Origin: Chamaelirium japonicum
Lineage: Eukaryota; Streptophyta; Magnoliopsida; Liliales; Melanthiaceae
Direction of reading: 5' to 3'
Assembly (NCBI GenBank): GCA_947650365.1
Contig: OX393549.1
Location: forward strand, 30,595,209 to 30,659,208
DNA length: 64,000 bases
The notes beneath the pieces were generated by a model. The model had not been told where the DNA came from. It saw nothing but the letters and a program-made list of their open reading frames with translations, and searched no databases. The position numbers were made by a program, and so were the translations under genes. Below, one piece after another: positions 1 through 64,000 of this stretch; position 1 is the first letter of the stretch; the number at the start of each line of letters is the position of its first letter.

Positions 1-312
1 TAGAATAGATCGTACGAATGAATTAGAATGGATCGTACGAATAAATTAGAACGGATCGTGGGAATGAATTAGAATGGATAGTACGAATGAAATAGAATGG
101 ATCCACCGAATGAGTTAGAATGGATCATACGAATGAATTAGAATGGATTGTACGAATGAACTAGAATGGATTGTGCGAATGAATTAGAATGGATCGTATG
201 AATGAATAAGAATGGATCATATGAATGAATTAGAATGGATCATGCGAATGAATTAGCATGAATCGTACGAATGTATTAGAATGGATCGTACGAATGAATT
301 AGAATGAATCGT
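1..312 (+). repeat. Plus block 1
   Basis: About 13 units. It contains the variants ATCGTGGGAATG (55-65) and ATCCACCGAATGAGTTAG (100-118), which recur in the same order at 34620-34700 and 62215-62290. It ends at a J12 junction with CGTACG at 310-315. Confidence 0.93.
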
Positions 313-783
313 ACGATCCATTCTAATTCAATCATCCGATCCATTCTAATTCATTCGCATGAATGTATCCATTCTAATTAATTCGTACAATCCATTCTAT
401 TTCATTCGTACGATCCATTCTTACTCATTCGTATGATCCATTCTAATTCATTCGTATGATCCATTCTAATTCATTCGTACGATCCATTCTAATTCATTCG
501 TACGATCCATTCTAATTCATTCGCACGATCCATTCTAATTCATTCATACGATCCATTCTAATTCATTCCTACAATCCATTCTAATTCATTCGCCCGATCC
601 ATTCTAATTCATTCATACGATCCATTCTATTCGAATGGATCATGCGATCCATTCGAATTCATTCGCACGATCCATTCTAATTCATTCATACGATCCATTC
701 TAATTCATTCATGCAATGCATTCTAATTCTTTCACACGATCCGTTCTAATTCATTCATACGATCCATTCTAATTCATTCGTAC
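313..783 (-). repeat. Minus block 2, abutting the gag fragment
   Basis: It includes the 24-bp palindrome at 632-655 and one CATTCGCATGAATGTATCC 28-mer near 350. The last satellite bases before the insert are ATTCATTCGTAC, ending at 783. Confidence 0.93.
632..655. repeat. 24-bp palindrome with 4-base loop
   Basis: The arms CGAATGGATC and GATCCATTCG are perfect and flank ATGC. Copies occur at 5494-5517, 8014-8037 (arm changed), 10687-10710, 20550-20573, 35236-35259 and 61643-61666 (one arm base changed). In all of them the array keeps the same orientation on both sides, so the palindrome is an inserted or inverted half-unit rather than a block switch. Confidence 0.9.
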
Positions 784-1088
784 AACTCCTTCCTAGCGGC
801 CTCTCTGGCAGTGACGGCCTCGTCCCGCTCCGCCACGGCCTTTTTGAGGTCGTCGGAGGACTTGAGCTGGGATGCCTCCAGCTCGGCCATGCCCGACACC
901 AGGTTCGGGACCCTCTGCCAAAGCTCCTCCACCTCTTTCAGAGCCACGGCGTGCGAAGCCCGCTGGAGCTCGTGGATGTGCTCGTCCACCTTGCGCTCAG
1001 ACCCCCAAATGGAATCATCGAACAAGGCGGCCAACGCCTTCCCGGCCCCAGCGACCTCCGCGGCCAGCGCCTGGCTCTGTTTCTCCGC
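777..1088 (-). other. Downstream exon-like coiled-coil part (104 codons)
   Basis: It is continuously open from the acceptor at 1088. Residues run AEKQSQALAAEVAGAGKAL, then a segment with FDDSIWGSERKVDEHIHEL, then VEELWQRVPNLVSGMAELEA and DLKKAVAERDEAVTAREAAR. Regular hydrophobic spacing with abundant Ala, Glu and Lys suggests a parallel coiled coil. There is no natural end: KEL is followed by TAC GAA TGA, where the Tyr and Glu codons and the stop are made by the adjacent minus-orientation satellite. Satellite identity resumes at 783 going left. Confidence 0.5.
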
Positions 1089-1160
1089 CTGCATAAGGAA
1101 GATGAAAAAGTTAGCGAGAATTAACATTTTTGGCGTAAGGGCAGAGAGGGCAAGAGGTAC
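1089..1160 (-). other. Probable 72-bp phase-0 spliceosomal intron
   Basis: On the minus strand the sequence reads GAG then GTACCTC at 1163-1154 (donor) and ends TTCATCTTCCTTATGCAG at 1089 (pyrimidine-rich acceptor), followed by GCGGAG. The segment is AT-rich between GC-rich flanks, as plant introns are. Its length is exactly 24 codons and it has no stop in frame, so it also reads through as VPLALSALTPKML...FFIFLMQ, a hydrophobic stretch out of keeping with the charged coiled coil around it. Removing it joins ISERLAE to AEKQSQA and gives a continuous helical sequence. Its presence shows the captured DNA was not a spliced cDNA of this transcript. Confidence 0.6.
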
Positions 1161-1451
1161 CTCGGCCAGGCGTTCGCTTATGGAAGCGAAGGGGGCTCGG
1201 ACGAAGACGTTGCGGCCCAGCAGCTGCCGCACGTAGTAGGGCGCCCTCCCCTCCTCCGCAGAGGAGCCAGCGCTGGGACCCCCGGAGCGTCGGTAGGAGG
1301 TGGCATGCCGGGAGAAGGAGTGGGGGCTGGCGCCTCTCCTGGGCGAGCTCCGGCTGCTGGCGGGCTCGGAGGGTTCGCCCTAGCCCCTTTGGCCTCCGAC
1401 TCCGAGCTGAAGGACTCAGAGTCGGAGCCAATGTCCACGAAGCTAGGGGAC
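1161..1451 (-). other. Upstream exon-like part of the fragment, with internal frameshift
   Basis: Two minus-strand frames are open here. The frame carrying SDSESFSSESEAKG is open from 1451 to 1181 and stops at 1178-1180. The frame that continues into RQLLGRNVFVRAPF is open from 1379 downward, with a TAG at 1380-1382. The two overlap at 1181-1379, so a single one- or two-base indel in that stretch would explain the break. In the downstream frame the overlap reads as a basic Ser/Arg/Gly-rich stretch (SFSRHATSYRRSGG); in the upstream frame it reads as Pro-rich. The 1451 edge is placed at an AG that could be a splice acceptor. Confidence 0.45.
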
Positions 1452-1456
1452 CTGTA

Positions 1457-2843: not shown

Positions 2844-4953
2844 CATTCTAATTTATTCGTATGATCCATTCTAATTCATTTGTATCCATTCTATTTCATT
2901 CGCACGATCCATTCTAATTCATTCGCGCAATCTATTCCAATTCATTCGTACGATCCATTCTAATTCATTCGTACGATCCATTCTAATTCATTCATACAAT
3001 CCATTCTAATTTATTCGCACGAATGTATCCATTCTAATTCATTCATACGATCCATTCTAATTCATTCGCACAATCTATTCTAATTCATTCATACGATCCA
3101 TTCTAATTCATTCGCACGAATGTATCCATTCTAATTCATTCATACGATCCATTCTACTTCATTCGTACAATCCATTCTAATTCACTCATACGATCCATTC
3201 TAATTCATTCATACGATCCATTCTAATTCATTTGCACGAATATATCTATTCTAATTCATTCGTACGATCCATTCTAATTCCTTCGTACGATCCATTCTAA
3301 TTCCTTCGTACGATCCATTCTATTTCCTTCGTACGATCCATTCTATTTCATTCGTATGATCCATTCTAATTCCTTCGTACGATCCATTCTAATTCCTTCG
3401 TATCCATTCTAATTCACTCATACGATCCATTCTAATTCATTCGTACGATCCATTCTAATTCATTCATACAATCCATTCTAATTCATTCGCACGAATGTAT
3501 CCATTCTAATCCATTCGTACGATCCATTCTAATCCATTCGTACGATCCATTCTAATTCATTCGCATGAATGTAACCATTCTAATTCATTCATTTGATCCA
3601 TTCTAATTCATTCGTACGATCCATTCTAATTCATTTGTCCGATCCATTCTAATTCATTCGCACGAATGTATCCATTCTAATTTATTCGTACGATCCATTC
3701 TAATTCATTCGTACGATCCATTCTAATTCATTCGTAAGATCCATTCGAATTCATTCGTACGATCCATTCTAATTCATTCATACGATCCATTCTAATTCAT
3801 TCGCACGAATGTATCCATTCTAGTTCATTCGTACGATCCATTCTAGTTCATTCGTACGATCCATTCTAATTCATTCGTACGATCCATTCTAATTCATTCG
3901 TATTATCCATTCTAATTAATTCGTATGATCCATTCTAATTCATTCGTATGATCCATTCTAATTCATTCATACAATCCATTCTAATTCATTCGCACGAATG
4001 TATCCATTCTAATTAATTCGTACGATCCATTCTAATTCATTCGTATGATCCATTCTTATTCATTCGCACGATCCAGTCTAATGGATTCGCACGATCCATT
4101 CTAATTCATTCGCACGAATGTATCCATTCTAATTCATTCGTACGATCCATTCTAATTCATTAATATGATCCATTCTATTTCATTCGTACGATCCATTCTA
4201 ATTCAAATGCACAAAGGTATCGATTCTAATCCATTCGTAGGATCTATTCTAATCCATTCGTACGATCCATTCTAATTCATTCGTACGATCCATTCTAATT
4301 CATTCGCTCGAATGTATCCATTCTAATCCATTCGTAGGATCTATTCTAATTCATTCGTCCGATCCATTCTAATTCATTCGTCCGATCCATTCTAATTCAT
4401 TCGCACGAATGTATCCATTCTAATTCATTCGTACGATCCATTCTAATTCATTCGTAAGATCCATTCTAATTCATTCGTACGATCCATTCTAATTCATTCG
4501 CACGATCCATTCTAATTCATTTGCACGAATGTATCCATTCTAGTTCATTCGTACGATCCATTCTAATTCATTCGTACGATCCATTCAAATTCATTCGCAC
4601 GATCCATTCTAATTCATTCCTACGATCAATTCTAATTCATTCGCACGAATGTATCCATTCTAATTCATTCATACGATCCATTCTAATTCATTCGTACGAT
4701 CCATTCTAATTCACTCATACGATCCATTCTAATACATTCATACGATCCATTCTAATTCATTTGCACGAATATATCCATTCTAATTCACTCGTACGATCCA
4801 TTCTAATTCCTTCATACGATCTATTCTAATTCATTCGTACGATCCATTCTAATTCATTCGTACGATCCATTCTAATTCCTTCGTATGATCCATTCTAATT
4901 CATTCGTACGATCCATTCTAAGTCATTCGTACAATCTATTCTAATTCATTCGT
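2844..4953 (-). repeat. Minus block 6
   Basis: 2.1 kb with many 28-mers (CGCACGAATGTATCC) and a run of TTCCTTCGTACG units near 3270-3410. The stretch 3790-4190 recurs at 62515-62915, and 3960 onward recurs from 9130. It ends at J1 with CGTACG 4951-4956. Confidence 0.93.
3790..4190 (-). repeat. Segmental duplicate of 62515-62915
   Basis: The offset is 58725 at 3802 and 4071. A partial third copy lies near 33250-33540 (CTAGTCTAATGG at 33475). Confidence 0.87.
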
Positions 4954-5805
4954 ACGAATGGATACATTCGTGTGAATGAATTAGAATGGATCGTACGAAT
5001 GAGTAAGAATGGCTCGTATGAATGAACTAGAATGGATTGCACGAATGAATTAGAATGGATCGTACGAATGAATTAGAATGGATCGTGTGAAAGAATTAGA
5101 ATGGATTGTATGATTGAATTAGAATAGATCGTACGAAGGAATTAGAATGGATCGTACGAAGGAATTAGAATGGATCGTACGAATGAATTACAATGGATCG
5201 TACGAATGAATTAGAATAGATCGTACGAATGAATTAGAATGGATCGTACGAAGGAATTAGAATGGATCGTACGAATGAATTAGAATTGATATATTCGTGC
5301 AAATGAATTAGAATGGATCGTATGAATGTATTAGAATGGATCGTATGAGTGAATTAGAATGGATCGTACGAATGAATTAGAATGGATTGTATGAATGAAT
5401 TAGAATGGATCGTGCGAAAGAATTAGAATGCATTGTATGAATGAATTAGAATGGATCGTATGAATGAATTAGAATGGATCATGCGAATGAATTCGAATGG
5501 ATCGCATGATCCATTCGAATAGAATGGATCGTATGAATGAATTAGAATGGATCGGGCGAATGAATTAGAATGGATTGTAGGAATGAATTAGAATGGATCG
5601 TATGAATGAATTAGAATGGATCGTATGAATGAATTAGAATGGATCGTGCGAATGAATTAGAATGGATAGTACGAATGAATTAGAATGGATCGTACGAATG
5701 AATTAGAATGGATCATACGAATGAATTAGAATGGATCATACGAATGAGTAAGAATGGATCGTACGAATGAAATAGAATGGATTGTACGAATGAATTAGAA
5801 TGGAT
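3960..5805. repeat. Segmental duplicate of 9130-10997
   Basis: The offset is 5170 at 4071 and 4205, and 5193 (one unit more) at 5494 and 5551. It spans the J1 switch, so junction and flanks were copied together. Confidence 0.9.
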
Positions 5806-5808: not shown

Positions 5809-6350
5809 ACGATCCATTCTAATTCATTCGTACGATCCATTCTAATTCATTCACACGATCCATTCTAATTCATTTGTACGATCCATTCTAATTCATTCGC
5901 ACGAATGTATCCATTCTAATTCATTCGTACATATGATCCATTCTAATTCATTCGCACGAATGTATCCATTCTAATTCATTTGTATAATCCATTCTATTTC
6001 ATTCGTACGATCCATTCTTACTCATTCGTATGATCCATTCTAATTCATTCGCACGAATGTATCCATTCTAATTCATTCGTACGATCCATTCTAATTCATT
6101 CGCACGATCCATTCTAATTCATTCGTAAGATCCATTCTAATTCATTCAAACGATCCATTCTAATTCATTCGTACGATCCATTCTAATTCACTCGCACGAA
6201 TGTATCCATTCTAGTTCATTCATACGATCCATTCTAATTCATTCGTACGATCCATTCTAATTCATTCGCACGATCCATTCTAATTCATTCGTACGATCAA
6301 TTCTAATTCATTCGCAGGAATGTATCCATTCTAATTCATTCGTACGATCC
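5809..6350 (-). repeat. Minus block 8
   Basis: It contains the truncated unit GTACATATGATCC at 5927-5939, which recurs at 18394-18406. It ends at J5 (GATCCTGAATTAG). Confidence 0.92.
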
Positions 6351-6999
6351 TGAATTAGAATGGATCGTACGAATGAATTAGAATGGATCGTACGAATGAA
6401 CTAGAATGGATACATTCGTGCGAATGAATTAGAATGGATCGTATGAATGAATTAGAATGGATCGTACGAATGAATTAGACTGGATCATACGAATGAATTA
6501 GAATGGATCATACGAATGAGTAAGAATGGATCGTACGAATGAAACAGAATAGATTGTACGAATGAATTAGAATGGATCGTACGAATGAATTAGATTGGAT
6601 CAAGTGAAAGAATTAGAATGGATTGTATGAATGAATTAGAATGGATCATATGAATGAATTAGAATGGATCGTGCGAATGAATTCGAATGGATCGTACGAA
6701 TGAATTAGAATGGATCATACGAATGAATTAGAATGGATACATTCGTGCGAATGAATTAGAATGGATACATTCGTGCGAAAGAATTAGAATAGATCGTATG
6801 AATGAATTAGAATGGATCCTATGAATGAATTAGAATGGATCGTGCGAATGAATTAGAATGGATCGTGCTAATAAATTAGAATTGACGAACGAATGAATTA
6901 GCATGGATCGTGCTAATGAATTAGAATGGAACGTACGAATGAATTAGAATGGATCGTGTGAAAGAATTAGAATGGATTGTATGAATGAATTAGAATGAA
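6351..6999 (+). repeat. Plus block 9
   Basis: It holds ATCAAGTGAAAGAATTAG near 6600 and the rare variant TTGACGAACGAATGAATTAG near 6883, both present at 19020 and 19325 in the duplicate. It ends at J4 (GAATTC 6997-7002). Confidence 0.92.
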
Positions 7000-7650
7000 T
7001 TCGTACGATCCATTCGAATTCATTCGCACGATCCATTATAATTCATTCATACGATCCATTCTAATTCATTTATACAATCTATTCTAATTCTTTCACACGA
7101 TCCATTCTAATTCATTCGTAGGAACCATTCTAATTTATTCGTACAATCTATTGTATTTCATTCGTACGATCCATTCTTACTCATTCGTATGATCCATTCT
7201 AATTCATTCGGACGAATGTGTCCATTCTAATTTATTCGTACGATCCATTCTAATTCATTCATACGATCCATTCTAATTCATTCGTACGATCCATTCTTAC
7301 TCATTCGTATGATCTATTCTAATTCATTCATACGATCCATTCTAATTCATTCGTACGATCCATTCTAATTCATTCGCACAATCTATTCTAATTCATTCGT
7401 TCGTCAATTCTAATTCATTAGCACGATCCATTCTAATTCATTCGTACGATCCATTCTAATTCATTCGCACGATCCATTCTAATTCATTCATAGGATCCAT
7501 TCTAATACATTCATACGATCTATTCTAATTCTTTCGCACGAATGTATCCATTCTAATTCATTCGCACGAATGTATCCATTCTAATTCATTCGTACGATCC
7601 ATTCTAATTCATTCGTATGATCCATTCGAATTCATTCGCACGATCCATTC
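7000..7650 (-). repeat. Minus block 10
   Basis: It contains GTAGGAACCATTC near 7118, GGACGAATG near 7210 and the shortened unit CGTTCGTCAATTC near 7397. It ends at J13, a CGCACGATCC...GTGCG inverted step. Confidence 0.92.
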
Positions 7651-8356
7651 GTGCGAATGAATTAGAATGGATTGTATGAATGAATTAGAATGGATATATT
7701 CGTGCGAATGAATTAGAATGGATCATACGAATGAGTAAGAATGGATCGTACGAATGAAATAGAATGGATTGTACGAATGAATTAGAATGGATCATACAAA
7801 TGAATTAGAATGGATCGTACGAATGAATTAGAATGGATCATACGAATGAGTAAGAATGGATCATACAAATGAAATAGAATGGATTGTACGAATGAATTAG
7901 AATGGATCGTACGAATGAATTAGAATGGATCGTGTGAAAGAATTAGAATGCATTGTATGAATGAATTAGAATGGATCGTATGAATGAATTAGAATGGATC
8001 GTGCGAATGAATTCGAATGGATCACATGATCCATACGAATAGAATGGATCGTATGAATGAATTAGAATGGATCGGGCGAATGAATTAGAATGGATTGTAG
8101 GAATGAATTAGAATGGATCGTATGAATGAATTAAAATGGATCGTATGAATGAATTAGAATGGATCGTGCGAATGAATTAGAATGGATCGTACGAATGAAT
8201 TAGAATGGATCGTACGAATGAATTAGAATGGATCATACGAATGAGTATGAATGGATCGTACGAATGAAATAGAATGGATTGTACGAATGAATTAGAATGG
8301 ATACATTCATGCGAATGAATTAGAATTGATCGGACGATTGAATTAGAATGGATCGT
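7651..8356 (+). repeat. Plus block 11
   Basis: It contains a partly decayed copy of the 24-bp palindrome (8014-8037), the ATCGGGCG variant at 8071 and GGACGATTG near 8332. It ends at J9. Confidence 0.92.
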
Positions 8357-10146
8357 ACGATTCATTCTAATTCATTCGTACGATCCATTCTAATACATTC
8401 GTACGATTCATGCTAATTCATTCGCACGATCCATTCTAATTGATTCGTATGAATGTATCCATTATAATTCATTCGTACGATCCATTCTAATTCATTAATA
8501 TGATCCATTCTAATTCATTCGTACGATCGATTCTAATTCATTCGCACTATCTATTCTAATTCATTCGTACGATCCATTCTAATTCATTCGTATGATCCAT
8601 TCTAATTTATTCATTCAAATATATCCATTCTAATTCATTCGTACGATCCATTCTAATTCATTCGCACGATCCATTCTAATTCATTCGCACGAATGTATCC
8701 ATTCTAATTCATTTGCACGATCCATTCTAATTCATTCCTATGATCTATTCTAATTCATTCGTACGATCTATTCTAATTTATTCGCTCGAATGTATCCATT
8801 CTAAGTCATTGGTACGATCCATTCTAATTCGTTCATCTGATCCATTCTAATTCATTCGTACGATCCATTCTAATTCGTTCGTACAATCCATTCTAATTCA
8901 TTCGTATGATCCATTCTAATTCATTCCTACGATCTATTCTAATTCATTCGCTCGAATATATCCATTCTAATTCATTCGTTCGATCCATTCTAATTCATTC
9001 GCACGATCCATTCTAATTCATTCGTATGATCCATTCTAATCCATTCGTACGATCCATTCTAATTCATTCGTACGATCCATTCTAATTCATTCGTATGATC
9101 CATTCTAATTCATTCGTACGATCCATTCTAATTCATTCATACAATCCATTCTAATTCATTCGCACGAATGTATCCATTCTAATTAATTCATACGATCCAT
9201 TCTAATTCATTCGTATGATCCATTCTTATTCATTTGCACGATCCAGTCTAATGGATTCGCACGATCCATTCTAATTCATTCGCACGAATGTATCCATTCT
9301 AATTCATTCGTACGATCCATTCTAATTCATTAATATGATCCATTCTAATTCATTCGTGCGATCCATTCTAATTTAAATGCACAAAGATATCGATTCTAAT
9401 CCATTCGTAGGATTTATTCTAATCCATTCGTACGATCCATTCTAATTCATTCGTACGATCCATTCTAATTCATTCGCTCGAATGTATCCATTCTAATCCA
9501 TTCGTAGGATCTATTCTAATTCATTCGTCCGATCCATTCTAATTCATTCGTCCGATCCATTCTAATTCATTCGCACGAATGTATCCATTCTAATTCATTC
9601 GTACGATCCATTCTAATTCATTCGTACGATCCATTCTAATTCATTCGTAAGATCCATTCTAATTCATTTGTACGATCCATTCTAATTCATTCGCACGATC
9701 TATTCTAATTCATTCGCACGAATGTATCCATTCTAGTTCATTCGTACGATCCATTCTAATTCATTCGTACGATCCATTCTAATTCATTCGCACGATCCAT
9801 TCTAATTCATTCGTACGATCAATTCTAATGCATTCGCACGAATGTATCCATTCTAATTCATTCATACGATCCATTCTAATTCATTCGTACGATCCATTCT
9901 AATTCACTCATACGATCCATTCTAATACATTCATACGATCCATTCTAATTTATTTGCACGAATATATCCATTCTAATTCACTCGTACGATCCATTCTAAT
10001 TCCTTCATACGATCTATTCTAATTCATTCGTACGATCCAATCTAATTCATTCGTACGATCCATTCTAATTCCTTCGTATGATCCATTCTGATTCATTCGT
10101 ACGATCCATTCTAAGTCATTCGTACAATCTATTCTAATTCATTCGT
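8357..10146 (-). repeat. Minus block 12
   Basis: The left part (8357-9480) matches 20893-22012, and the part from 9130 matches 3960 onward. It carries the TTAATATGATCC and GCACAAAGATATCG markers near 9330-9390. It ends at J1. Confidence 0.93.
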
Positions 10147-11052
10147 ACGAATAGATACATTCGTGTGAATGAATTAGAATGGATCGTACGAATGAGTAAG
10201 AATGGCTCGTACGAATGAACTAGAATGGATTGCACGAATGAATTAGAATGGATCGTACGAATGAATTAGAATGGATCGTGTGAAAGAATTAGAATGGATT
10301 GTATGAATGAATTAGAATAGATCGTACGAAGGAATTAGAATGGATCGTACGAAGGAATTAGAATGGATCGTACGAATGAATTAGAATGGATCGTACGATT
10401 CAATTAGAATAGATCGTACGAATGAATTAGAATAGATCGTACGAAGGAATTAGAATGGATCGTACGAATGAATTAGAATGGATATATTCATGCAAATGAA
10501 TTAGAATGGATCGTATGAATGTATTAGAATGGATCGTATGAGTGAATTAGAATGGATCGTACGAATGAATTAGAATGGATCATATGAATGAATTAGAATG
10601 GATCGTGCGAAAGAATTAGAATGCATTGTATGAATGAATTAGAATGGATAGTATGAATGAATTAGAATGGATCATACGAATGAATTCGAATGGATCGCAT
10701 GATCCATTCGAATAGAATGGATCGTATGAATGAATTAGAATGGATCGGGCGAATGAATTAGAATGGATTGTAGGAATGAATTAGAATGGATCGTATGAAT
10801 GAATTAGAATGGATCGTATGAATGAATTAGAATGGATCGTGCGAATGAATTAGAATGGATAGTACGAATGAATTAGAATGGATCGTACGAATGAATTAGA
10901 ATGGATCATACGAATGAATTAGAATGGATCATACGAATGAGTAAGAATGGATCGTACGAATGAAATAGAATGGATTGTACGAATGAATTAGAATGGATAC
11001 ATTCATGCGAATGAATTAGAATGGATCGGACGATTGAATTAGAATGGATCGT
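10147..11052 (+). repeat. Plus block 13
   Basis: It repeats plus block 7 nearly unit for unit up to 10997, including the palindrome at 10687-10710. It then joins the plus block 11 ending (ATTCATGCG, GGACGATTG) and closes at J9. Confidence 0.92.
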
Positions 11053-11706
11053 ACGATTCATTCTTATTCATTCGTACGATCCATTCTAATACATTCGTAC
11101 GATTCATGCTAATTCATTCGCACGATCCATTCTAATTCATTCGTACGATCCATTCTTATTCATTCATACGATCCATTCTAATTCATTCGCACAATCCATT
11201 CTAATTCATTCGTACAATCCATTCTAATTCATTCGTACGATCCATTCTAATTCATTCCCACGATCCATTCTAATTTATTCATACGATCCATTCTAATTCA
11301 TTCGTACGATCTATTCTAATTCATTCGCACGAATGTAACCATTCTAATTCATTCATACGATTCATTCTAATTCATTCGTATGAGCTATTCTAATTCATTC
11401 GTACGATACATTCTAATTCATTCGTACGATCCATTGTAATTCATTCATACAATCCATTTAGATTCATTCGCACAAATGTATCCATTCAAATTCATTCGTA
11501 CGATCCAGTCTAATTCATTCGTACGATCCATTCTAATTCCTTCGTACGATCCATTCTAATTCATTCGTACGATCTATTCTAATTCATTCGTACAATCAAT
11601 TCTAATTCATTCGTACGATCCATTCTAATTCCTTCGTACGATCCATTCTAATTCATTCGTATGATCCATTCTAATTCATTCGTACAATCTATTCTAATTC
11701 ATTCGT
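11053..11706 (-). repeat. Minus block 14
   Basis: Variants include CATTCCCACGATCC near 11256, TATGAGCTATTC near 11390 and CATTTAGATTCATTCGC near 11455; all three recur near 25275-25480. It ends at J1. Confidence 0.92.
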
Positions 11707-18817: not shown

Positions 18818-19443
18818 TGAATTAGAATGGATCGTACGAATGAATTAGAATGGATCGTACGAATGAACTAGAATGGATACATTCGTGCGAATGAATTAGA
18901 ACGGATCATACGAATGAAATAGAATGGATCATACGAATGAGTAAGAATGGATCGTACGAATGAAACAGAATGGATTGTACGAATGAATTAGAATGGATCG
19001 TACGAATGAATTAGAATGGATCAAGTGAAAGAATTAGAATGGATTGTATGAATGAATTAGAATGGATCATATGAATGAATTAGAATGGATCGTGCGAATG
19101 AATTCGAAAGGATCGTACGAATGAATTAGAATGGATCATACGAATGAATTAGAATGGATACATTCGTGCGAATGAATTAGAATGGATACATTCGTGCGAA
19201 AGAATTAGAATAGATCATATGAATGAATTAGAATGGATCCTATGAATGAATTAGAATGGATCGTGCGAATGAATTAGAATGGATCGTACGAATGAATTAG
19301 AATCGATCGTGCTAATGAATTAGAATTGACGAACGAATGAATTAGCATGGATCGTGCTAATGAATTAGAATGGAACGTACGAATGAGTTAGAATGGATCG
19401 TGTGAAAGAATTAGAATGGATTGTATGAATGAATTAGAATGAA
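18818..19443 (+). repeat. Plus block 19
   Basis: Duplicate of plus block 9, sharing ATCAAGTGAAAG and GACGAACGAATG. It ends at J4 (GAATTC 19441-19446). Confidence 0.92.
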
Positions 19444-51522: not shown

Positions 51523-53864
51523 TGAATTAGAATGGATCGTACGAATGAATTAGAATGGATACCTTTGTGCATATGAATTAGAATGGATCGTACGAATGAA
51601 TTAGAATGGATCATATTAATGAATTAGAATGGATCGTACAAATGAATTAGAATGGATACATTCGTGCGAATGAATTAGAATGGATCGTACGAATGAATTA
51701 GAACGGATCGTACGAATGAACTAGAATGGATACATTCGTGCGAATGAATTAGAATGGATCGTACGAATGAATTAGAATGGATCGTACGAATGAATTAGAA
51801 TGGATCTTACGAATGAATTAGAATGGATCGTACGAATGAATTAGAATGGATCATACGAATGAATTAGAATGGATCGTACGAATGAATTAGAATGGATCAT
51901 ATTAATGAATTAGAATGGATCGTACGAATGAATTGGAATGGATACATTCGTGCGAATAAATTAGAATGGATCGGACGAATGAATTAGAATGGATCGTACG
52001 AATGAATTAGAATGGATCAAATAAATGAATTAGAATGGTTACATTCATGCGAATGAATTAGAATGGATCGTACGAATGGATTAGAATGGATCGTACGAAT
52101 GGATTAGAATCGATACATTCGAGCGAATAAAATAGAATGGATCGTACGAATGAATTAGAATGGATCGTACGAATGGATTAGAATGGATCCTACGAATGGA
52201 TTAGAATGGATACCTTTCTGCATATGAATTAGAATGGATCGTACGAATGAATTAGATTGGATACATTCGTGCGAATGAATTAGAATGGATCGTGCGAATC
52301 AATTAGACTGGATCGTGCGAATGAATAAGAATAGATCATACGAATGAATTAGAATGGATACAGTCGTGCGAATGAATTAGAATGGATTGTATGAATGAAT
52401 TAGAATGGATCGTACGAATGAATTAGAATGGATCATACGAATGAATTAGAATGGATCGTACGAATGAATTAGAATGGATCGTACGAATGAATTAGAATGG
52501 ATACATTCGTGTGAATGAATTAGAATGGATCGTATGAATGATTTAGAATAGATTTTGTGAATGAATTAGAACTGATCGTACGAATGAATTAGAATGGATA
52601 CATTCGTGCGAATGAATTAGAATGGATTGTATGAATGAATTAGAATGGATCGTCGAATGAATTAGAATGGATCGTATGAGTGAATTAGAATGGATACGAA
52701 GGAATTAGAATGGATCGTACGAATGAATTAGAATGGATCGTACGAAGGAATTAGAATGGATCGTACGAATGAATTAGAATGGATCGTACGAATGAACTAG
52801 AATGGATCATACGAATGAATTAGAATGGATCTTACGAATGAATTAGAATGGATCGTACGAATAAATTAGAATGGATCGTACGAATGAATTAGAATGGATC
52901 GTGCGAATGAATTAGAATGGATCATATTAATGAATTAGAATGGATCGTACGAATGAATTAGAATGGATACATTCGTGCGAATGAATTAGAATGGATCGTG
53001 CAAATCAATTAGACTTGATCGTGCGAATGAATAGGAATAGATCATACGAATGAATTAGAATGGATCGTACGAATTAATTAGAATGGATACATTCGTGCGA
53101 ATGAATTAGAATGGATTGTATGAATGAATTAGAATGGATCGTACGAATGAATTAGAATGGATCATACGAATTAATTAGAATGGATCATACGAATGAATTA
53201 GAATGGATGGTACGAATGAATTAGAATGGATCGTACGAATGAATTAGAATGGATACATTCGTGTGAATGAATTAGAATGGATCGTATGAATGAATTAGAA
53301 TAGATTTTGTGAATGAATTAGAACTGATCGTACGAATGAATTAGAATGGATACATTCGTGCGAATGAATTACAATGGATTGTATGAATGAATTAGAATGG
53401 ATCGTTCGAATTAATTAGAATGGATCGTGTTAGTGAATTAGAATGGATACGAAGGAATTAGAATGGATCGTACGAATGAATTAGAATGGATCGTACGAAG
53501 GAATTAGAATGGATCGTACGAATGAATTAGAATAGATCGTACGAATGAATTAGAATGGATCGTACGAAGGAATTAGAATGGATCGTACGAATGAATTAGA
53601 ATGGATCGTACGAATGAACTAGAATGGATACATTCGTGCGAATGAATTAGAATGGATTGTACGAATGAATTAGAATGGATCGTACGAATGAATTAGAATG
53701 GATCGTACGAATGAATTAGAATGGATCTTACGAATGAATTAGAATGGATCGTACGAATGAATTAGAATGGATCGTATGAATGAATTAGAGTGGATCGTAC
53801 GAATGAGTGAGAATGGATCATACGAATGAATTAGAATGGATCGTACGAATGAAATAGAATGGAT
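51523..53864 (+). repeat. Plus block 55
   Basis: Start of the long plus-dominated region. The plus-sense GGATACCTTT module is near 51550 and 52210, and the AGATTTTG marker is at 52550 and 53302. A unit with a two-base deletion (ATCGTCGAATG) is near 52650. Confidence 0.93.
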
Positions 53865-56800
53865 TCGCACGAATATATCCATTCTAATTCATTCGTACGA
53901 TCCATTCTAATTCACTAGCACGATCGTACGAATTAATTAGAATGGATCGTGCGAATGAATTAGAATAGATCGTGCGAATGAATTAGAATGGATATATTCG
54001 TGCAAATGAATTAGAATGGATCGTACGAATGAATTAGAATGGATCGTTTTAGTGAATTAGAATGGATACGAAGGAATTAGAATGGATCGTATGAAGGAAT
54101 TAGAATGGATCATACGAATGAAATAGAATGGATCGTACGAAGGAATTAGAATGGATCGTACGAATGAAATAGAATGGATTATGCGAATGAATTAGAATGG
54201 ATCGTACGAATGAATTAGAATGGATACATTCGTGCGAATGAATTAGAATGGATCATACGAATGAGTAAGAATGGATCGTACGAATGAAATAGAATGGATT
54301 ATACAAATGAATTAGAATGGATACATTCGTGCGAATGAATTAGAATGGATCGTATGTACGAATGAATTAGAATAGATACATTCGTCCGAATGAATTAGAA
54401 TGGATCATACGAATGAATTAGAATGGATCGTGCGAATGAATTAGAAGGGATCGTACGAATGAATTAGAATGGATCGTACGAATGAACTAGAATGGATACA
54501 TTCGTGCATGGATCGTACGAATGAATTAGAATGGATCGTACGAATGAATTAGAATGGATACATTCGTGCGAATGAATTAGAATGGATACATTCGTGTGAA
54601 AGAATTAGAATGGATTGTATGAATGAATTAGAATGGATCGTACAAATGAATTAGAATGGATACATTCGTGCGAATGAATTAGAATGGATCGTACGAATGA
54701 ATTAGAATGGATCGTACGAATGAACTTGAATGGATACATTCGTGCGAATGAATTAGAATGGATCGTACGAATGAATTAGAATGGATCGTACGAATGAATT
54801 AGAATGGATCTTACAAATGAATTAGAATGGATCGTACGAATGAATTAGAATGGATCATACGAATGAATTAGAATGGATCGTATGAATGAATTAGAATGGA
54901 TCATATTAATGAATTAGAATGGATCGTACGAATGAATTAGAATGGATACATTCGTGCGAATAAATTAGAATGGATCGGACGAATGAATTAGAATGGATCG
55001 TACGAATGAATTAGAATGGATCAAATAAATGAATTAGAATGGTTACATTCATGCGAATGAATTAGAATGGATCGTACGAATGGATTAGAATGGATACATT
55101 CGAGCGAATGAAATAGAATGGATCGTACGAATGAATTAGAATGGATCGTACGAATGGATTAGAATGGATCCTACGAATGGATTAGAATGGATACCGTTGT
55201 GCATGTGAATTAGAATGGATCGTACGAATGAATTAGAATGGATCATATTAATGAATTAGAATGGATCGTACGAATGAATTAAAATGGATACATTCGTGCG
55301 AATGAATTAGAATGGATCGTGCGAATCAATTAGACTGGATCGTTCGAATGAATAAGAATAGATCATACGAATGAATTAGAATGGATCGTACGAATTAATT
55401 AGAATGGATTGTATGAATGAATTAGAATGGATCGTACGAATGAATTAGAATGGATCATACGAATTAATTAGAATGGATCATACGAATGAATTAGAATGGA
55501 TTGTACGAATGAATTAGAATGGATCGTACGAATGAATTAGAATGGATACATTCGTGTGAATGAATTAGAATGGATCGTATGAATGAATTAGAATAGATTT
55601 TGTGAATGAATTAGAACTGATCATACGAATGAATTAGAATGGATACATTCGTGCGAATGAATTAGAATGGATTGTATGAATGAATTAGAATGGATCGTTC
55701 GAATGAATTAGAATGGATCGTATGAGTGAATTAGAATGGATACGATGGAATTAGAATGGATCGTACGAATGAATTAGAATGGATCGTACGAAGGAAACAG
55801 AATGGATTGTACGAATGAATTAGAATGGATCGTACGAATGAATTAGAATGGATCGTACGAATGAATTAGAATGGATCTTATGAATGAATTAGAATGGATC
55901 GTACGAATAAATTAGAATGGATCGTACGAATGAATTAGAATGGATCGTGCGAATGAATTAGAATGGATCATGTTAATGAATTAGAATGGATCGTACGAAT
56001 GAATTAGAATGGATACATTCGTGCGAATGAATTAGAATGGATCGTGTGAATCAATTAGACTGGATCGTGCGAATGAATAAGAATAGATCATACGAATGAA
56101 TTAGAATGGATCGTACGAATGAATTAGAATGGATCTTACGAATGAATTAGAATGGATCGTACGAATAAATTAGAATGGATCGTACGAATGAATTAGAATG
56201 GATCGTGCGAATGAATTAGAATGGATCGTGCGAATCAATTAGACTGGATCGTCCGAATGAATAAGAATAGATCATACGAATGAATTAGAATGGATCGTAC
56301 GAATTAATTAGAATGGATACATTCGTGCGAATGAATTAGAATGGATTGTATGAATGAATTAGAATGGATCGTACGAATGAATTAGAATGGATCATACGAA
56401 TTAATTAGAATGGATCATACGAATGAATTAGAATGGATCGTACGAATGAATTAGAATGGATCGTACGAATGAATTAGAATGGATACATTCGTGTGAATGA
56501 ATTAGAATGGATCGTATGAATGAATTAGAATAGATTTTGTGAATGAATTAGAACTGATCGTACGAATGAATTAGAATGGATACATTCGTGCGAATGAATT
56601 AGAATGGATTGTATGAATGAATTAGAATGGATCGTTCGAATGAATTAGAATAGATCGTATGAGTGAATTAGAATGGATACGAAGGAATTAGAATGGATCG
56701 TACGAATGAATTAGAATGGATCGTATGAAGGAATTAGAATGGATCGTGCGAATGAATTAGAATGGATCGTACGAATGAATTAGAATGGATCGTACGAATG

Positions 56801-57723
56801 AATTAGAATGGATCGTACGAATAAATTAGAATGGATCGTACGAATGAATTAGAATGGATCGTGCGAATGAATTAGAATGGATCGTGCGAATCAATTAGAC
56901 TGGATCGTGCGAATGAATAAGAATAGATCATACGAATGAATTAGAATGGATCGTACGAATTAATTAGAATGGATATATTCGTGCGAATGAATTAGAATGG
57001 ATTGTATGAATGAATTAGAATGGATCGTACGAATGAATTAGAATGGATCATACGAATTAATTAGAATGGATCATACGAATGAATTAGAATGGATCGTATG
57101 AATGAATTAGAATGGATACATTCGTGTGAATGAATTAGAATGGATCATATGAATGAATTAGAATAGATTTTGTGAATGAATTAGAACTGATCGTACGAAT
57201 GAATTAGAATGGATACATTCGTGCGAATGAATTAGAATGGATTGTATGAATGAATTAGAATGGATCGTTCGAATGAATTAGAATGGATCGTATGAGTGAA
57301 TTAGAATGGATACGATGGAATTAGAATGGATCGTACGAATGAATTAGAATGGATCGTATGAAGGAATTAGAATGGATCGTACGAATGAATTAGAATGGAT
57401 CGTACGAATGAATTAGAATAGATCGTACGAATGAATTAGAATGGATCGTCTGAAGGAATTAGAATGGATCATACGAATGAATTAGAATGGATCGTATGAA
57501 TGAACTAGAATGGATACATTCGTGCGAATGAATTAGAATGGATCGTACGAATGAATTAGAATGGATATTACGAATGAATTAGAATGGATCGTACGAATGA
57601 ATTAGAATGGATCGTACGAATGAATTAGAATGGATCGTATGAATGAATTAGAATGGATCGTACGAATGAGTGAGAATGGATCGTACGAATGAATTAGAAT
57701 GGATCGTACGAATGAAATAGAAT
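53861..57723 (+). repeat. 3.9-kb super-repeat, copy 1
   Basis: It starts at GGATTCGCACGAATATATCC, the entry of the inverted island. The next copy starts 3863 bases later. Shared marker order is island, ATATTCGTGCAAATG, GGATTATACAAATG, ATGTACG, GTGCATGG, GGTTACATTCATGCG, AATCAATTAGACTGG, AGATTTTG, GGATACGAAGG or GATGG. Confidence 0.88.
53865..53928 (-). repeat. Minus island 56 (first J14 island)
   Basis: Just under three minus-sense units, CGCACGAATATATCC through AATTCACTAGCACG, embedded in plus sequence and closed by ATCGTACGAATTAATTAG. Confidence 0.92.
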
Positions 57724-57727
57724 GGAT
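53929..57727 (+). repeat. Plus block 57 (super-repeat copy 1 body)
   Basis: At 3.8 kb this is the longest single-orientation run. Internal markers are CGTTTTAGTG near 54046, GGATTATACAAATG near 54296, GTGCATGGATCG near 54504, and AGATTTTG at 55595, 56532 and 57165. Confidence 0.93.
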
Positions 57728-60700
57728 TCGCACGAATGTATCCATTCTAATTCATTCGTACGATCCATTCTAATTCACTTGCACGATCGTACGAATTAAT
57801 TAGAATGGATCGTGCGAATGAAATAGAATGGATATATTCGTGCAAATGAATTAGAATGGATCGTACGAATGAATTAGAATGGATCGTACGAATGAATTAG
57901 AATGGATCGTATGAATGAAATAGAATGGATCGTACGAATGAAATAGAATGGATTGTGCGAATGAATTAGAATGGATCGTACGAATGAATTAGAATGGATA
58001 CATTCGTGCGAATAAATTAGAATGGATCATACGAATGAGTTAGAATGGATCGTACGAATGAAATAGAATGGATTATACAAATGAATTAGAATGGATACAT
58101 TCCTGCGAATGAATTAGAATGGATCGTATGTACGAATGAATTAGAATGGATACATTCGTGCGAATGAATTAGAATGGATCGTACGAATGAATTAGAATGG
58201 ATCGTGCGAATGAATTAGAATGGATCGTACGAATGAATTAGAATGGATCGTACGAATGAACTAGAATGGATACATTCGTGCATGGATCGTACGAATGAAT
58301 TAGAATGGATCGTACGAATGAATTAGAATGGATACATTCATGCGAATGAATTAGAATGGATACATTTGTGCGAAAGAATTAGAACGGATTGTATGAATGA
58401 ATTAGAATAGATCGTACAAATGAATTAGAATGGATACATTCGTGCGAATGAATTAGAATGGATCGTACGAATGAATTAGAATGGATCGTAAGAATGAACT
58501 AGAATGGATACATTCGTGCGAATGAATTAGAATGGATCGTACGAATGAATTAGAATGGATCGTACGAATGAATTAGAATGGATCTTACGAATGAATTAGA
58601 ATGGATCGTACGTATGAATTAAAATGGATCATACGAATGAATTAGAATGGATCGTACGAATGAATTAGAATGGATCATATTAATGAATTAGAATGGATCG
58701 TACGAATGAATTAGAATGGATACATTCGTGCGAATAAATTAGAATGGATCGGACGAATGTATTAGAATGGATCGTACGAATGAATTAGAATAGATCAAAT
58801 AAATGAATTAGAATGGTTACATTCATGCGAATGAATTAGATGGATCGTACGAATGGATTAGAATGGTTCGTACGAATGGATTAGAATGGATACATTCGAG
58901 CGGATGAAATAGAATGGATCGTACGAATGAATTAGAATGGATACATTCGTGCGAATGAATTAGAATAGATCGTGCGAATCAATTAAACTGGATCGTCCGA
59001 ATGAATAAGAATAGATCATACGAATGAATTAGAATGGATCGTACGAATTAATTAGAATGGATACATTCGTGCGAATGAATTAGAATGGATTGTAGGAATG
59101 AATTAGAATGGATCGTACGAATGAATTAGAATGGATCATACGAATTAATTAGAATGGATCATACGAATGAATTAGAATGGATCGTTCGAATGAATTAGAA
59201 TGGATCGTACGAATGAATTAGAATGGATACATTCGTGTGAATGAATTAGAATGGATCGTATGAATGAATTAGAATAGATTTTGTGAATGAATTAGAATTG
59301 ATCGTACGAATGAATTAGAATGGATACATTCGTGCGAATGAATTAGAATGGATTGTATGAATTAATTAGAATGGATCATTCGAATGAATTAGAATGGATC
59401 GTATGAGTGAATTAGAATGGATACGAAGGAATTAGAATGGATCGTACGAATGAATTAGAATGGATCGTACGAATGAATTAGAATGGATCGTACAAATGAA
59501 TTAGAATGGATCGTACGAATGAATTAGAATGGATCTTACGAATGAATTAGAATGGATCGTACGAATAAATTAGAATGGATCGTACGAAGAATTAGAATGG
59601 ATCGTGCGAATGAATTAGAATGGATCATATTAATGAATTAGAATGGATCGTACGAATGAATTAGAATGGATACATTCGTGCGAATGAATTAGAATGGATC
59701 GTGCGAATCAATTAGACTGGATCGTGCGAATGAATAAGAATAGATCATACGAATGAATTAGAATGGATCGTACGAATGAATTAGAATGGATCTTACGAAT
59801 GAATTAGAATGGATCGTACGAATAAATTAGAATGGATCGTACGAATGAATTAGAATGGATCGTGCGAATGAATTAGAATGGATCGTGCGAATCAATTAGA
59901 CTGGATCGTGCGAATGAATAAGAATAGATCATACGAATGAATTAGAATGGATCGTACGAATTAATTAGAATGGATAAATTCGTGCGAATGAATTAGAATG
60001 GATTGTATGAATGAATTAGAATGGATCGTACGAATGAATTAGAATAGATCATACGAATTAATTAGAATGGATCATAGGAATGAATTAGAATGGATCGTAC
60101 GAATGAATTAGAATGGATACATTCGTGTGAATGAATTAGAATGGATCGTATGAATGAATTAGAATAGATTTTGTGAATGAATTAGAACTGATCGTATGAA
60201 TGAATTAGAATGGATACATTCGTGCGAATGAATTAGAATGGATTGTATGAATGAACTAGAATGGATCGTTCGAATGAATTAGAATGGATCGTATGAGTGA
60301 ATTAGAATGGATACAAAGGAATTAGAATGGATCGTACGAATGAATTAGAATGGATCGTACGAAGGAATTAGAATGGATCGTACGAATGAATTAGAATGGA
60401 TCGTACGAATGAATTAGAATAGATCGTACGAATGAATTAGAATGGATCGTACGAAGGAATTAGAATGGATCGTACGAATGAATTAGAATGGATCGTACGA
60501 ATGAACTAGAATGGATACATTCGTGCGAATGAATTAGAATGGATCGTACGAATGAATTAGAATGGATCGTACGAATGAATTAGAATGGATCTTACGAATG
60601 AATCAGAATGGATCGTACGAATGAATTAGAATGGATCGTACGAATGAATTAGAATGGATCGTATGAATGAATTAAAATGGATCGTACGAATGAGTGAGAA

Positions 60701-60747
60701 TGGATCGTACGAATGAATTAGAATGGATCGTACGAATGAAATAGAAT
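57724..60747 (+). repeat. 3.0-kb super-repeat, copy 2
   Basis: Length 3024. Relative to copy 1 it is about 840 bases shorter and has two rather than three AGATTTTG submodules, so it differs by loss of one submodule of the 600-950-bp class plus smaller changes. Confidence 0.87.
57728..57790 (-). repeat. Minus island 58 (second J14 island)
   Basis: Same island with AATTCACTTGCACG in place of CACTAGCACG and with GTATCC in place of ATATCC. Confidence 0.92.
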
Positions 60748-60751
60748 GGAT
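57791..60751 (+). repeat. Plus block 59 (super-repeat copy 2 body)
   Basis: It carries GGATTATACAAATG near 58069, GTGCATGGATCG near 58280, and AGATTTTG at 59276 and 60166. It lacks the CGTTTTAGTG unit found in the other two copies. A 22-bp unit, GAATTAGATGG, is near 58836. Confidence 0.93.
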
Positions 60752-61480
60752 TCGCACGAATGTATCCATTCTAATTCATTCGTACGATCCATTCTAATTC
60801 ACTAGCACGATCGTACGAATTAATTAGAATGGATCGTGCGAATGAATTAGAATAGATCGTGCGAATGAATTAGAATGGATATATTCGTGCAAATGAATTA
60901 GAATGGATCGTACGAATGAATTAGAATGGATCGTTTTAGTGAATTAGAATGGATACGAAGGAATTAGAATGGATCGTACGAAGGAATTAGAATGGATCAT
61001 ACGAATGAAATAGAATCGATCGTACGAAGGAATTAGAATGGATCGTACGAATGAGTAAGAATGGATCGTACGAATGAAATAGAATGGATTGTGCGAATGA
61101 ATTAGAATGGATACATTCGTGCGAATGAATTAGAATGGATCATACGAATGAGTAAGAATGGATCGTACGAATGAAATAGAATGGATTATACAAATGAATT
61201 AGAATGGATACATTCGTGCGAATGAATTAGATTGGATCGTATGTACGAATGAATTAGAATGGATACATTCGTGCGAATGAATTAGAATGGATCGTACGAA
61301 TGAATTAGAATGGATCGTGCGAATGAATTAGAATGGATCGTACGAATGAATTAGAATGGATACATTCGTGCATGGATCGTACGATTGAATTAGAATGGAT
61401 CGTACGAATGAATTAGAATGGATCGTACGAATGAATTAGAATGGATACATTCGTGGGAATGAATTAGAATGGATACATTC
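60748..61480 (+). repeat. Super-repeat, copy 3 (partial)
   Basis: It follows copies 1 and 2 through the GTGCATGGATCG unit near 61370 and is then replaced by modules found elsewhere (5494 region, 34390 region). Confidence 0.82.
60752..60814 (-). repeat. Minus island 60 (third J14 island)
   Basis: Same island with CACTAGCACG as in the first copy. Confidence 0.92.
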
Positions 61481-62483
61481 ATGCGAAAGAATTAGAATGG
61501 ATTGTATGAATGAATTAGAATGGATCGTATGAATGAATTAGAATGGATCGTGCGAATGAATTCGAATGGATCGTACGAATGAACTAGAATGGATACATTT
61601 GTGCGAATGAATTAGAACTAGAATGGATCGTGCGAATGAATTCGAATGGATCGCATGATCCATTGGAATAGAATGGATCGTATGAATGAATTAGAATGGA
61701 TCGGGCGAATGAATTAGAATGGATTGTAGGAATGAATTAGAATGGATCGTATGAATGAATTAGAATGGATCGTACGAATGAATTAGAATGGATATTACGA
61801 ATGAATTAGAATGGATACATTCGTGTGAATGAATTAGAATGGATCGTACGAATGAATTAGAATGGATCGTACAAATGAATTAGAATGGATCGTACGAATG
61901 AATTAGAATGCATCGTACGAAAGAATTAGAATGGATATATTCGTGGGAATGAATTAGAATGGATCGTACGAATGAATTAGACTGGATCGTACGAATGAAT
62001 TTGAATGGATACATTTGTGCGAATGAATCTAAATGGATTGTATGAATGAATTACAATGGATCGTTCGAATGAATTAGAATGGATCGTATGAATGAATTAG
62101 AATAACTCATACGAATGAATTAGAATGAATCGTATGAATGAATTAGAATGGTTACATTCGTGCGAATGAATTAGAATAAATCGTAAGAATGAATTAGAAT
62201 GGATCAAACGAATAAATTAGAATGGATCGTGGGAATGAATTAGAATGGATCGTACGAATAAATTAGAATGGATCAACCGAATGAGTTAGAATGGATCATA
62301 CGAATGAATTAGAATGGATTGTTTGAATGAATTAGAATGGATTGTGCGAATGAATTAGAATGGATCGTATGAATGAATAAGAATGGATCGTACGAATGAA
62401 TTAGAATGGATCGTGCGAATAAATTAGCATGAATCGTACGAATGTATTAGAATGGATCGTACGAATGAATTAGAATGAATCGT
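60815..62483 (+). repeat. Plus block 61 (super-repeat copy 3, partial, then other modules)
   Basis: It follows copy 1 (CGTTTTAGTG near 60930, GGATTATACAAATG near 61186, GTGCATGGATCG near 61370) to about 61480. It then carries a decayed palindrome (61643-61666) and the 61980-62483 segment shared with plus block 37. It ends at J12. Confidence 0.93.
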
Positions 62484-63300
62484 ACGATCCATGCTAATTC
62501 ATTCGTACGATCCATTCTAATTCATTCGCACGAATGTATCCATTCTAGTTCATTCGTACGATCCATTCTAGTTCATTCGTACGATCCATTCTAATTCATT
62601 CGTACGATCCATTCTAATTCATTCGTATGATCCATTCTAATTAATTCGTATGATCCATTCTAATTCATTCGTACGATCCATTCTAATTCATTCATACAAT
62701 CCATTCTAATTCATTCGCACGAATGTATCCATTCTAATTAATTCGTACGATCCATTCTAATTCATTCGTATGATCCATTCTTATTCATTCGCACGATCCA
62801 GTCTAATGGATTCGCACGATCCATTCTAATTCATTCGCACGAATGTATCCATTCTAATTCATTCGTACGATCCATTCTAACTCATTAATATGATCCATTC
62901 TAATTCATTCGCACGATCCATTCTAGTTCATTCATACGATCCATTCTAATTCATTCGTACGATCCATTCTAATTCATTCGCACGATCCATTCTAATTCAT
63001 TCGTACAATCTATTCTATTTCATTCGTACGATCCATTCTTACTCATTCGTTTGATCCATTATAATTAATTCGGACGAATGTATCCATTCTAATTTATTCG
63101 TACGATCCATTCTAATTCATTCGTACGATCCATTCTAATTCATTCGTACGATCCATTCTAATTCATTCGTCCGGTCCATTCTAATTCATTCGCACGAATG
63201 TATCCATTCTAATTCATTCGTACGGTCCATTCTAATTCATTCGCACAATCCATTCTATTTCATTCGTACGATCCATTCCTACTCATTCGTATGATCCATT
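62484..63300 (-). repeat. Minus block 62
   Basis: The left part duplicates 3790-4190 at an offset of 58725. The right part duplicates 40330-40611. It ends at a one-base-changed J6 (ATCCATTACGGAT). Confidence 0.92.
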
Positions 63301-63649
63301 ACGGATACATTCGTGCGAATGAATTAGAATGGATCATACGAATGAGTAAGAATGGATCGCACGAATTAAATAGAATGGATTGTGCGAATGAATTAGAATG
63401 GATCGTACGAATGAATTAGAATGGATCGTGTGAAAGAATTAGAATGGATTGTATGAATGAATTAGAATAGATCGTATGAATGAATTAGAATGGATCGTAC
63501 GAATGAATTAGAATGGATCGTACGAATGAACTAGAATGGATACATTCATGCGAATGAATTAGAATGGATCGTACGAATGAATTAGAATGGATCGTACGAA
63601 TGAATTAGAATGTATCTTACGAATGAATTAGAATGGATCGTACGAATGC
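63301..63649 (+). repeat. Plus block 63
   Basis: Duplicate of plus block 43. It ends at J11. Confidence 0.92.
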
Positions 63650-64000
63650 ACGATCCATGCTAAGTCATTCGTTCGATCAATTCTAATTCATTCGCACGAT
63701 CCATTCTAATTCATTCGTACGATCCATTCTAATTCATTCGCACGATCCATTCTAATTCATTCATACGATCCATTCTTATTCTTTCACACGATCCATTCTA
63801 ATTCATTCGTACGATCCATTCTAATTCATTCGTACGATCTATTCTAGTTCATTCGTACGATCCATTCTAATTTCATTCGAACGATCCATTCTAATTCATT
63901 CGCTCGAATGTATCCATTCTAATCCATTCGTACGATCCGTTCTAATTCATTCGCATGAATGTAACCATTCTAATTCATTCATTTGATCCATTCTAATTCA
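63650..64000 (-). repeat. Minus block 64 (runs off the window)
   Basis: It begins CACGATCCATGCTAAGTC. The GCTCGAATGTATCC and GAATGTAACC markers are near 63901 and 63955. Confidence 0.92.

Follow-up and report, generated by a model that had tools for sequence, protein, structure and literature searches.

Strand-switch junctions that recur with their flanks, in both orientations, in a 23-bp satellite array of Chamaelirium japonicum

The usual picture of satellite DNA is one of head-to-tail arrays that are moulded by unequal crossing over. The stretch described here, a 64-kb window of the Chamaelirium japonicum assembly (GCA_947650365.1, contig OX393549.1, positions 30,595,209 to 30,659,208; positions below are counted within this window), consists almost entirely of one satellite whose monomers change strand many times. 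The junctions at these strand switches belong to a small number of types, which recur together with the variant monomers beside them, lie in both orientations, and are carried in copied blocks that may contain several junctions; the ends of such blocks are not enriched at junctions. As a whole, the explanation that we consider probable is one in which blocks of the array are continually copied and exchanged, and the junctions, made by a few rare events, are passengers of this traffic. The data consist of this one assembled array, and of sequence only.

Strand switches and recurring junction types

Apart from 671 bp (786-1456), the window is a single satellite, which occupies 1-785 and 1457-64000 and alternates in orientation. 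Its unit, GAATGAATTAGAATGGATCGTAC, is 23 bp long; monomers of this length make up 2173 of the 2750 that were cut out by a profile hidden Markov model (HMM), and another 365 belong to a 28-bp variant that ends in GGATACATTCGTGC. There are 605 distinct monomer sequences in the array, and thus enough variants for descent to be traced.

Strand switches were called with a two-strand version of the profile HMM, which divides the window into 75 segments, namely 74 satellite blocks and one insert. This gives 72 direct switches in 64 kb, 37 from plus to minus and 35 from minus to plus. Ten of these bound an 18-bp reversed piece that is present in five copies; when they are set aside and the switch across the insert is added, the number is 63, which is the count reached in a first-pass annotation of the same window.

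Junctions were compared within each polarity, over flanks of ±70 bp and in both orientations. In the histogram of pair identities, which has two modes, 7 of 1259 pairs fall between 0.70 and 0.80. An identity cut of 0.80 gives 16 types, of which 12 recur and cover 68 of the 72 switches; a cut of 0.85 gives 20 types, with 13 recurring types that cover 65 of the 72. The 16 types have 12 (A), 10 (B), seven (C and D), five (E, F, G and H), four (I), three (J and K) and two (L) members, and there are four singletons. The first-pass annotation had placed 56 of 63 switches in recurring junctions, and the present figure is close to this: 58 of 62 without the 18-bp pieces, and 58 of 63 once the switch across the insert is added as a singleton. 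Its number of types, about 15 (J1-J14), was too high. Since a plus-to-minus switch keeps this polarity on the opposite strand, the reverse copy of a junction belongs to the same type and not to a second one. Furthermore, the 18-bp piece is bounded by E and F, and a reversed piece of 46-57 bp by J and K; with each pair counted once there are 10 recurring loci, not 14.

The recurrence extends to the flanks of the junctions. In gapped alignments over ±100 bp, the mean identity within a type is 0.89-0.99 (lowest in type H, at 0.89), whereas 2000 pseudo-junctions built by joining randomly drawn flanks of equal phase have a mean of 0.824, a 99% value of 0.915 and a maximum of 0.945. Types B, E, F and L have means of at least 0.98, and the lowest single pairs are found in C (0.855), G (0.888) and H (0.75). 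It had been stated beforehand that the proposal of recurring junctions should fall if same-type flanks were no closer to each other than random monomers, and they are clearly closer. That junctions of one type have the same neighbours is correct for the adjacent monomers and only partly so for the neighbouring junctions. For the 56 switches outside the short reversed pieces, the order of neighbouring junctions alone gives P=0.067, while order combined with spacing to within 25% gives 13 pairs where 4.0 would be expected (P=0.0006).

Copying and turning of blocks

Self-comparison with BLAST was abandoned, since off-register satellite matches, with identities of about 83-84%, swamped it; alignment at the level of monomers took its place. 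The sequence of monomers was searched by the Smith-Waterman method with variants scored by their rarity and a score cut of at least 25, which yielded 138 direct and 130 inverted local duplications; in three shuffles of the monomers, searched both ways, the top score was 15.0. At least one switch is spanned by 148 of the 268 alignments, and at least two by 20 (the two ends of a short piece counting as two). The largest direct pair by score joins 5853-9503, with the junction order GALC, to 18320-22039, with the order GALFEC, over 155 monomers at a mean edit distance of 0.51 per monomer. Another direct pair, 3923-5787 and 9093-10980, shares the switches BFE, while inverted pairs share the four switches HBID (22554-24476 and 40360-42647) and the switches FECB (10609-11956 and 33944-35337). 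In total, 84% of the array and 94% of the switches lie inside a duplication. The same-type flanks and the multi-junction copies agree with the earlier proposal that a few founding switches were amplified by segmental duplication along with the variants that flank them.

Copies of a block lie far apart, with spacing quartiles of 7.8, 16.3 and 26.6 kb. Among the 220 alignments of at least 12 monomers, the divergence between copies runs from below 0.9% to above 3.5%, a spread which indicates that the amplification was not one burst. The longest exact repeat is shorter than 350 bp in direct and 300 bp in inverted orientation.

Both orientations are encountered at 8 of the 10 recurring loci. The two orientations are represented 7:5 in A, 7:3 in B, 4:3 in C (where that of the copy at 5808 is ambiguous), 3:4 in D, 2:3 in E/F, 4:1 in G, 4:1 in H and 2:2 in I; the loci found in a single orientation are J/K (3:0) and L (2:0). 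In maximum-likelihood trees, orientation has to change at least four times for A, three times for B, and twice each for D and C, and trees with shuffled labels need on average about 4.1, 2.7, 2.5 and 2.6, so that there is no clustering by orientation. Many branches of these trees are poorly supported, and the strongly supported ones force only two changes in A and one each in B, D and C. The ratio of direct to inverted alignments is 3:3, 13:11, 22:22, 39:29, 24:27 and 11:16 over the successive divergence bins of the 220 alignments, and a disjoint set chosen greedily by score contains 12 direct and 11 inverted pairs.

The first-pass annotation had favoured amplification of a small number of founders over continuous flipping. 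The amplified founders stand, and the contrast with flipping does not: the loci present both ways, the inverted multi-junction blocks and the trees all show that blocks kept turning after the junctions had formed. The choice between amplification and flipping is in fact not forced. Each switch lies between inverted homologous arms, and a homologous exchange between these arms flips the junction and leaves no new one. The small number of types therefore says nothing about the rate of flipping.

Block inversion is common but rarer than direct copying. We suggest tentatively, and with some doubt, that block copying may be nearly blind to orientation, with blocks of 0.2-4 kb being copied to places typically 8-27 kb away at rates of the same order in both orientations; the reason would be that monomers of either strand can serve as homology. 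Strict blindness to orientation was rejected, as direct copies are favoured in three of four counts (12:11, 20:12, 12:6 and 11:4, of which the last three are explained below).

The behaviour of block ends bears on the role of the junctions. Of 1072 duplication ends, 5.2% fall within 30 bp of a switch, against 6.4% in a shift null, and there is no enrichment at 60 or 120 bp from switches either. Ends are rarer than chance near monomers of odd length (2.9% against 5.8% at 30 bp), in keeping with the prediction from in-register exchange. In the simplest interpretation, an in-register traffic of blocks carries the junctions along as passengers.

Founding events and individual junctions

According to the explanation favoured here, the array would grow and be reshuffled as blocks of about 0.2-4 kb are copied and exchanged in register between homologous monomers, in the same as well as the opposite orientation. 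About 16 rare events, either out-of-register end joining or replication strand switching, would have made the junctions, and most of these would then have been multiplied and turned as passengers. In this number the C junction at 5808 is an event of its own, E/F and J/K are one event each, and the switch across the insert is included. Homologous recombination or break-induced copying may drive the block traffic, while end joining or template switching may have produced the founders.

Over 100 bp, the two arms of a junction are 0.963 identical in D, 0.955 in P and 0.894 in I, compared with 0.857 for random arms (99% value 0.965); P and I are thus intermediate, and the arms of the remaining types are at or below the random level. 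All seven D copies have the same few variant monomers on both arms, the shared arms being about 3-4 monomers long, a pattern like that of a fold-back with a spacer, and the arms of H also share variant monomers. D and H may have arisen by folding back or by a switch to an inverted copy, and the other founders would be end joins or template switches. The founding events were spread over time, given the range of mean identities among types, from about 0.99 (E, F and L) to about 0.93 (C and G; H is lowered by indels), and given the places of three singletons described below, N inside an H copy, M near a D copy and O at the place of L. Simple balanced inversions as founders find no support in the phases: no plus-to-minus type has a minus-to-plus partner whose phases fit the other end of the same inversion (by hand arithmetic, with about 2.7 chance matches expected, so this is weak evidence); the search was limited to the window, and partners may lie outside it or have been lost. 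Phase sums, also worked out by hand, are equal among some unrelated types (6 for B, L and N; 11 for K, O and M), which could be chance or could reflect favoured registers.

Positions of junctions are those of the last base before the switch, and r marks the reverse orientation. Type A (plus to minus; 12 copies, spanning 2126 to 49530) is located at 2126, 6997r, 12701, 17022, 19441r, 24583r, 26966, 28061r, 36078, 46142r, 48753 and 49529, and type B (minus to plus; 10 copies, 4955 to 47462) at 4955, 10148, 11708, 14780, 23629, 29205r, 34191r, 39332, 41390r and 47461. Type C (plus to minus; seven copies, 312 to 62484), which sits at the centre of the palindrome TCGTACGA, is found at 312, 5808, 8356r, 11052r, 20892r, 34893 and 62483. 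The copy at 5808 has the phase of the other C copies and not their flanks, and is probably a separate event. The copy at 62483 shares one flank with the others and differs in the other flank right from the junction outward. Type G (minus to plus; five copies, 6350 to 51523), located at 6350, 18817, 22482, 26426r and 51522, is similar in this respect, with one flank common to all copies and the other in two forms that differ right from the junction outward. Such sharing of a single flank is what exchange at homologous monomers would give.

Type D (minus to plus; seven copies, 2673 to 63313) lies at 2673, 24224, 27348r, 40611r, 49088, 50049r and 63312r, type I (plus to minus; four copies, 23922 to 63649) at 23922, 40142, 40959r and 63648r, and type L (minus to plus; two copies, 7650 to 20187) at 7650 and 20186. 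Type H (plus to minus; five copies, 22657 to 50945) lies at 22657, 25662, 31176, 42543r and 50944; the last of these has a deletion in one arm, and one arm of the copy at 25662 is truncated by a younger switch, N. Three unswitched segments (15514-15947, 21846-22279 and 37536-37923) match one H arm up to the junction and possibly represent forms that predate the H switch. The singletons, between 2843 and 44010, are M (2843), N (25628), O (35646) and P (44009). M is 170 bp from a D copy, while O and the L copy at 20186 are at a matching place in homologous blocks, and O may be an L junction altered by deletion.

The 18-bp reversed piece with ends E and F has five copies (629-646, 5503-5520, 10696-10713, 20559-20576 and 35233-35250; span 628 to 35250) and occurs in both orientations. 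It is missing between L and C in 5853-9503 and present in the copy of this block at 18320-22039. In its structure it resembles the outcome of a double template switch. The piece with ends J and K has three copies in one orientation (53865-53921, 57739-57784 and 60763-60808; span 53864 to 60808), all within a stretch, 51523-62483, that is nearly all in plus orientation and consists of direct block repeats about 3-4 kb apart, with the J/K piece in each. Alignments of at least 12 monomers within this stretch comprise 12 direct and no inverted ones, and it represents a different, higher-order-like regime within the same array. On a smaller scale, most 28-bp monomers carry GGATACATTCGTGC as five extra bases, which form the near-palindrome CATTCGTGCGAATG with the next unit; these bases are possibly themselves the relic of a tiny strand switch.

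The only non-satellite DNA in the window is the GC-rich insert at 786-1456. It is preceded by satellite in both orientations (1-785 by HMM segmentation and typing, with junction C at 312 and the 18-bp piece at 629-646) and is located exactly at a minus-to-plus strand switch. It contains a truncated coding piece on the minus strand and a short GT...AG intron-like stretch, and satellite abuts directly on both sides, so that it looks like DNA captured at a break. The presence of 671 bp of foreign DNA inside one switch suggests end joining for that switch. The coding piece may resemble retroelement proteins. Translations of the insert gave no Pfam family above the cut-off (best E 0.14), and the insert had no match in a plasmid collection. 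No Rfam families and no tRNA genes are present in the window. An exact 42-base satellite pattern had no match in viral and genome contig collections that include neither plants nor animals, and a search of the literature by sequence did not find a 24-base stretch of the unit.

Competing explanations and related systems

Several results weigh against the favoured explanation. The pairwise ratio of 112 direct to 108 inverted alignments is inflated by non-independent pairs. When a disjoint set is chosen youngest first, direct pairs outnumber inverted ones by 20:12, and by 12:6 among pairs with fewer than 0.5 edits per monomer. Junction copies that are each other's closest relatives have the same orientation in 11 cases and the opposite orientation in four. 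A clean flip in place, with direct flanks on both sides, is seen in none of the 130 inverted alignments, and a one-sided case in seven. The avoidance of odd-length monomers by duplication ends is perhaps partly a scoring effect, with rare monomers drawing alignments past them. The founders, too, lack a common signature of overlap. Recounted independently of where the HMM places the junctions, the type-median overlap averages 2.6 bp against 2.9 bp by chance (P=0.67), which singles out no founder mechanism; an earlier excess of microhomology (5.6 against 2.4 bp) had depended on HMM placement and was discarded when it disappeared in the corrected count. Finally, duplication depth at switches is raised under normal scoring (5.14 against a shift null of 4.06 ± 0.41, P=0.006). 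Neutral scoring of the junction monomers leaves 124 direct and 122 inverted alignments, and a depth of 4.28 against 3.79 ± 0.38 (P=0.11). The idea of junctions as hotspots was dropped because the excess fades in this way, as expected of a scoring effect in which rare junction monomers lift alignment scores; a mild preference of duplication for junctions may nevertheless exist.

It might be supposed that each switch is an independent inversion at a favoured phase of the unit, for example at the palindrome TCGTACGA, without common descent. Type C, centred on this palindrome, is the only type with a long overlap (12 bp, with a chance probability of about 0.003 that is uncorrected for the 16 types), and its copy at 5808, with the phase and not the flanks of the others, is what such an origin would give. 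However, overlaps over all types are not above chance, multi-switch blocks recur at matching spacing, and same-type flanks have private variants in common far beyond the level of equal phase, as in seven of seven D copies. These shared variant haplotypes largely refute independent inversion, which we regard as very unlikely. Selection for a function of the junctions, such as hairpins or protein-binding sites, is very unlikely too. It would account for the almost unchanged sequences of B, E, F and L and for the somewhat raised raw depth at switches, but junction-free parts of the array are also duplicated (as the 84% coverage shows), the depth is not significantly raised under neutral scoring, and the 18-bp piece is polymorphically lost between GALC and GALFEC. 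In addition, there are many unrelated types, whose arms are mostly no more symmetric than random, with D as a clear exception and P and I intermediate.

A single long higher-order repeat with inverted parts, amplified head to tail and with its period hidden by decay, is improbable, although long direct copies do occur (5853-9503 with 18320-22039, 3923-5787 with 9093-10980, and 51.5-62.5 kb). A unit of constant period was not found, and the local direct repeat at 51.5-62.5 kb is the only one; spacings are scattered over the quartiles given above, junction order is only partly kept, and about half of the duplication pairs are inverted. Short-unit satellites are also hard to assemble, and the switches might be artefacts, such as fold-back reads or mis-joined repeats. 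Fold-back reads would give near-identical arms, but at most switches the arms are at the random level of 0.857, again with the exception of D. Duplicated contigs are unlikely as well, since copies differ by roughly 0.5-5% and exact repeats stay below 350 bp (direct) and 300 bp (inverted), and random mis-joins would hardly make junctions recur with their variants on both sides; we give artefacts very little credence. The traffic of blocks with passenger junctions accounts for the sameness of junctions without any function of the junctions themselves.

Recurrent and conserved inversion sites have already been published for satellites of Tribolium madens, and the present array shows a phenomenon of the same kind. 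In the published account, satellites TmSat1 and TmSat2 have units of 225 and 704 bp and three main inversion types, checked on raw reads; the sites INV_1a, INV_1b and INV_2 are 98.9%, 98.2% and 98.2% identical over 2044, 3486 and 6428 sites (PMC13081366). As there, many orientation changes of a tandem array, here 72 in 64 kb, take place at few and nearly identical junction types, here 12 recurring types with 68 of the 72 switches and mean identities of 0.89-0.99. Unlike in T. madens, the unit is 23 bp, about a dozen types are packed into 64 kb, and each junction may be present in both orientations. The T. madens arrays are described as mostly made of two balanced subarrays with dyad symmetry over tens of kilobases (PMC13081366). 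Symmetry over kilobases is mostly lacking in the present array, where arms beyond the first monomers mostly have identities of 0.83-0.88 over up to 700 bp against 0.857 for random arms, and a few short arms are higher.

Human HSat2,3 heterochromatic arrays resemble this satellite in their short CATTC-rich units, and in one study reads that matched both strands were set aside as possible inversion breakpoints; unlike here, the passage concerned contains neither a classification of junctions nor a test of their clonality (PMC4022460). The palindromes of ape Y chromosomes, described as inverted repeats of more than 8 kb with at least 98% identity (PMC11168930), are similar, as are the amplicons, in that inverted duplicated blocks exchange by homology. 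Unlike these, the longest inverted pair listed here is about 2 kb (22554-24476 and 40360-42647), and the blocks consist of satellite. The variant monomers shared by the arms of D and H are reminiscent of fold-back inversions, as far as these are described in two reports (PMC7467729, PMC3907307), but the D arms are short, at about 3-4 monomers, and most other types have no such symmetry.

In this array, strand switches serve as heritable tags of blocks that are copied over many kilobases and turned round. For T. madens, the authors take the sameness of junctions as a sign of possible function (PMC13081366). Near-identical inversion sites gain a neutral reading, common descent, if the surrounding blocks are at least as well conserved as the junctions inside them; identity between switch sites is not by itself a sign of function. 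If block copying is indeed nearly blind to orientation, a few accidental switches would spread and randomise the orientation of a whole satellite, with no need for more non-homologous breaks, and where inversion sites are conserved in other satellites, this could be a neutral signature of the same process.

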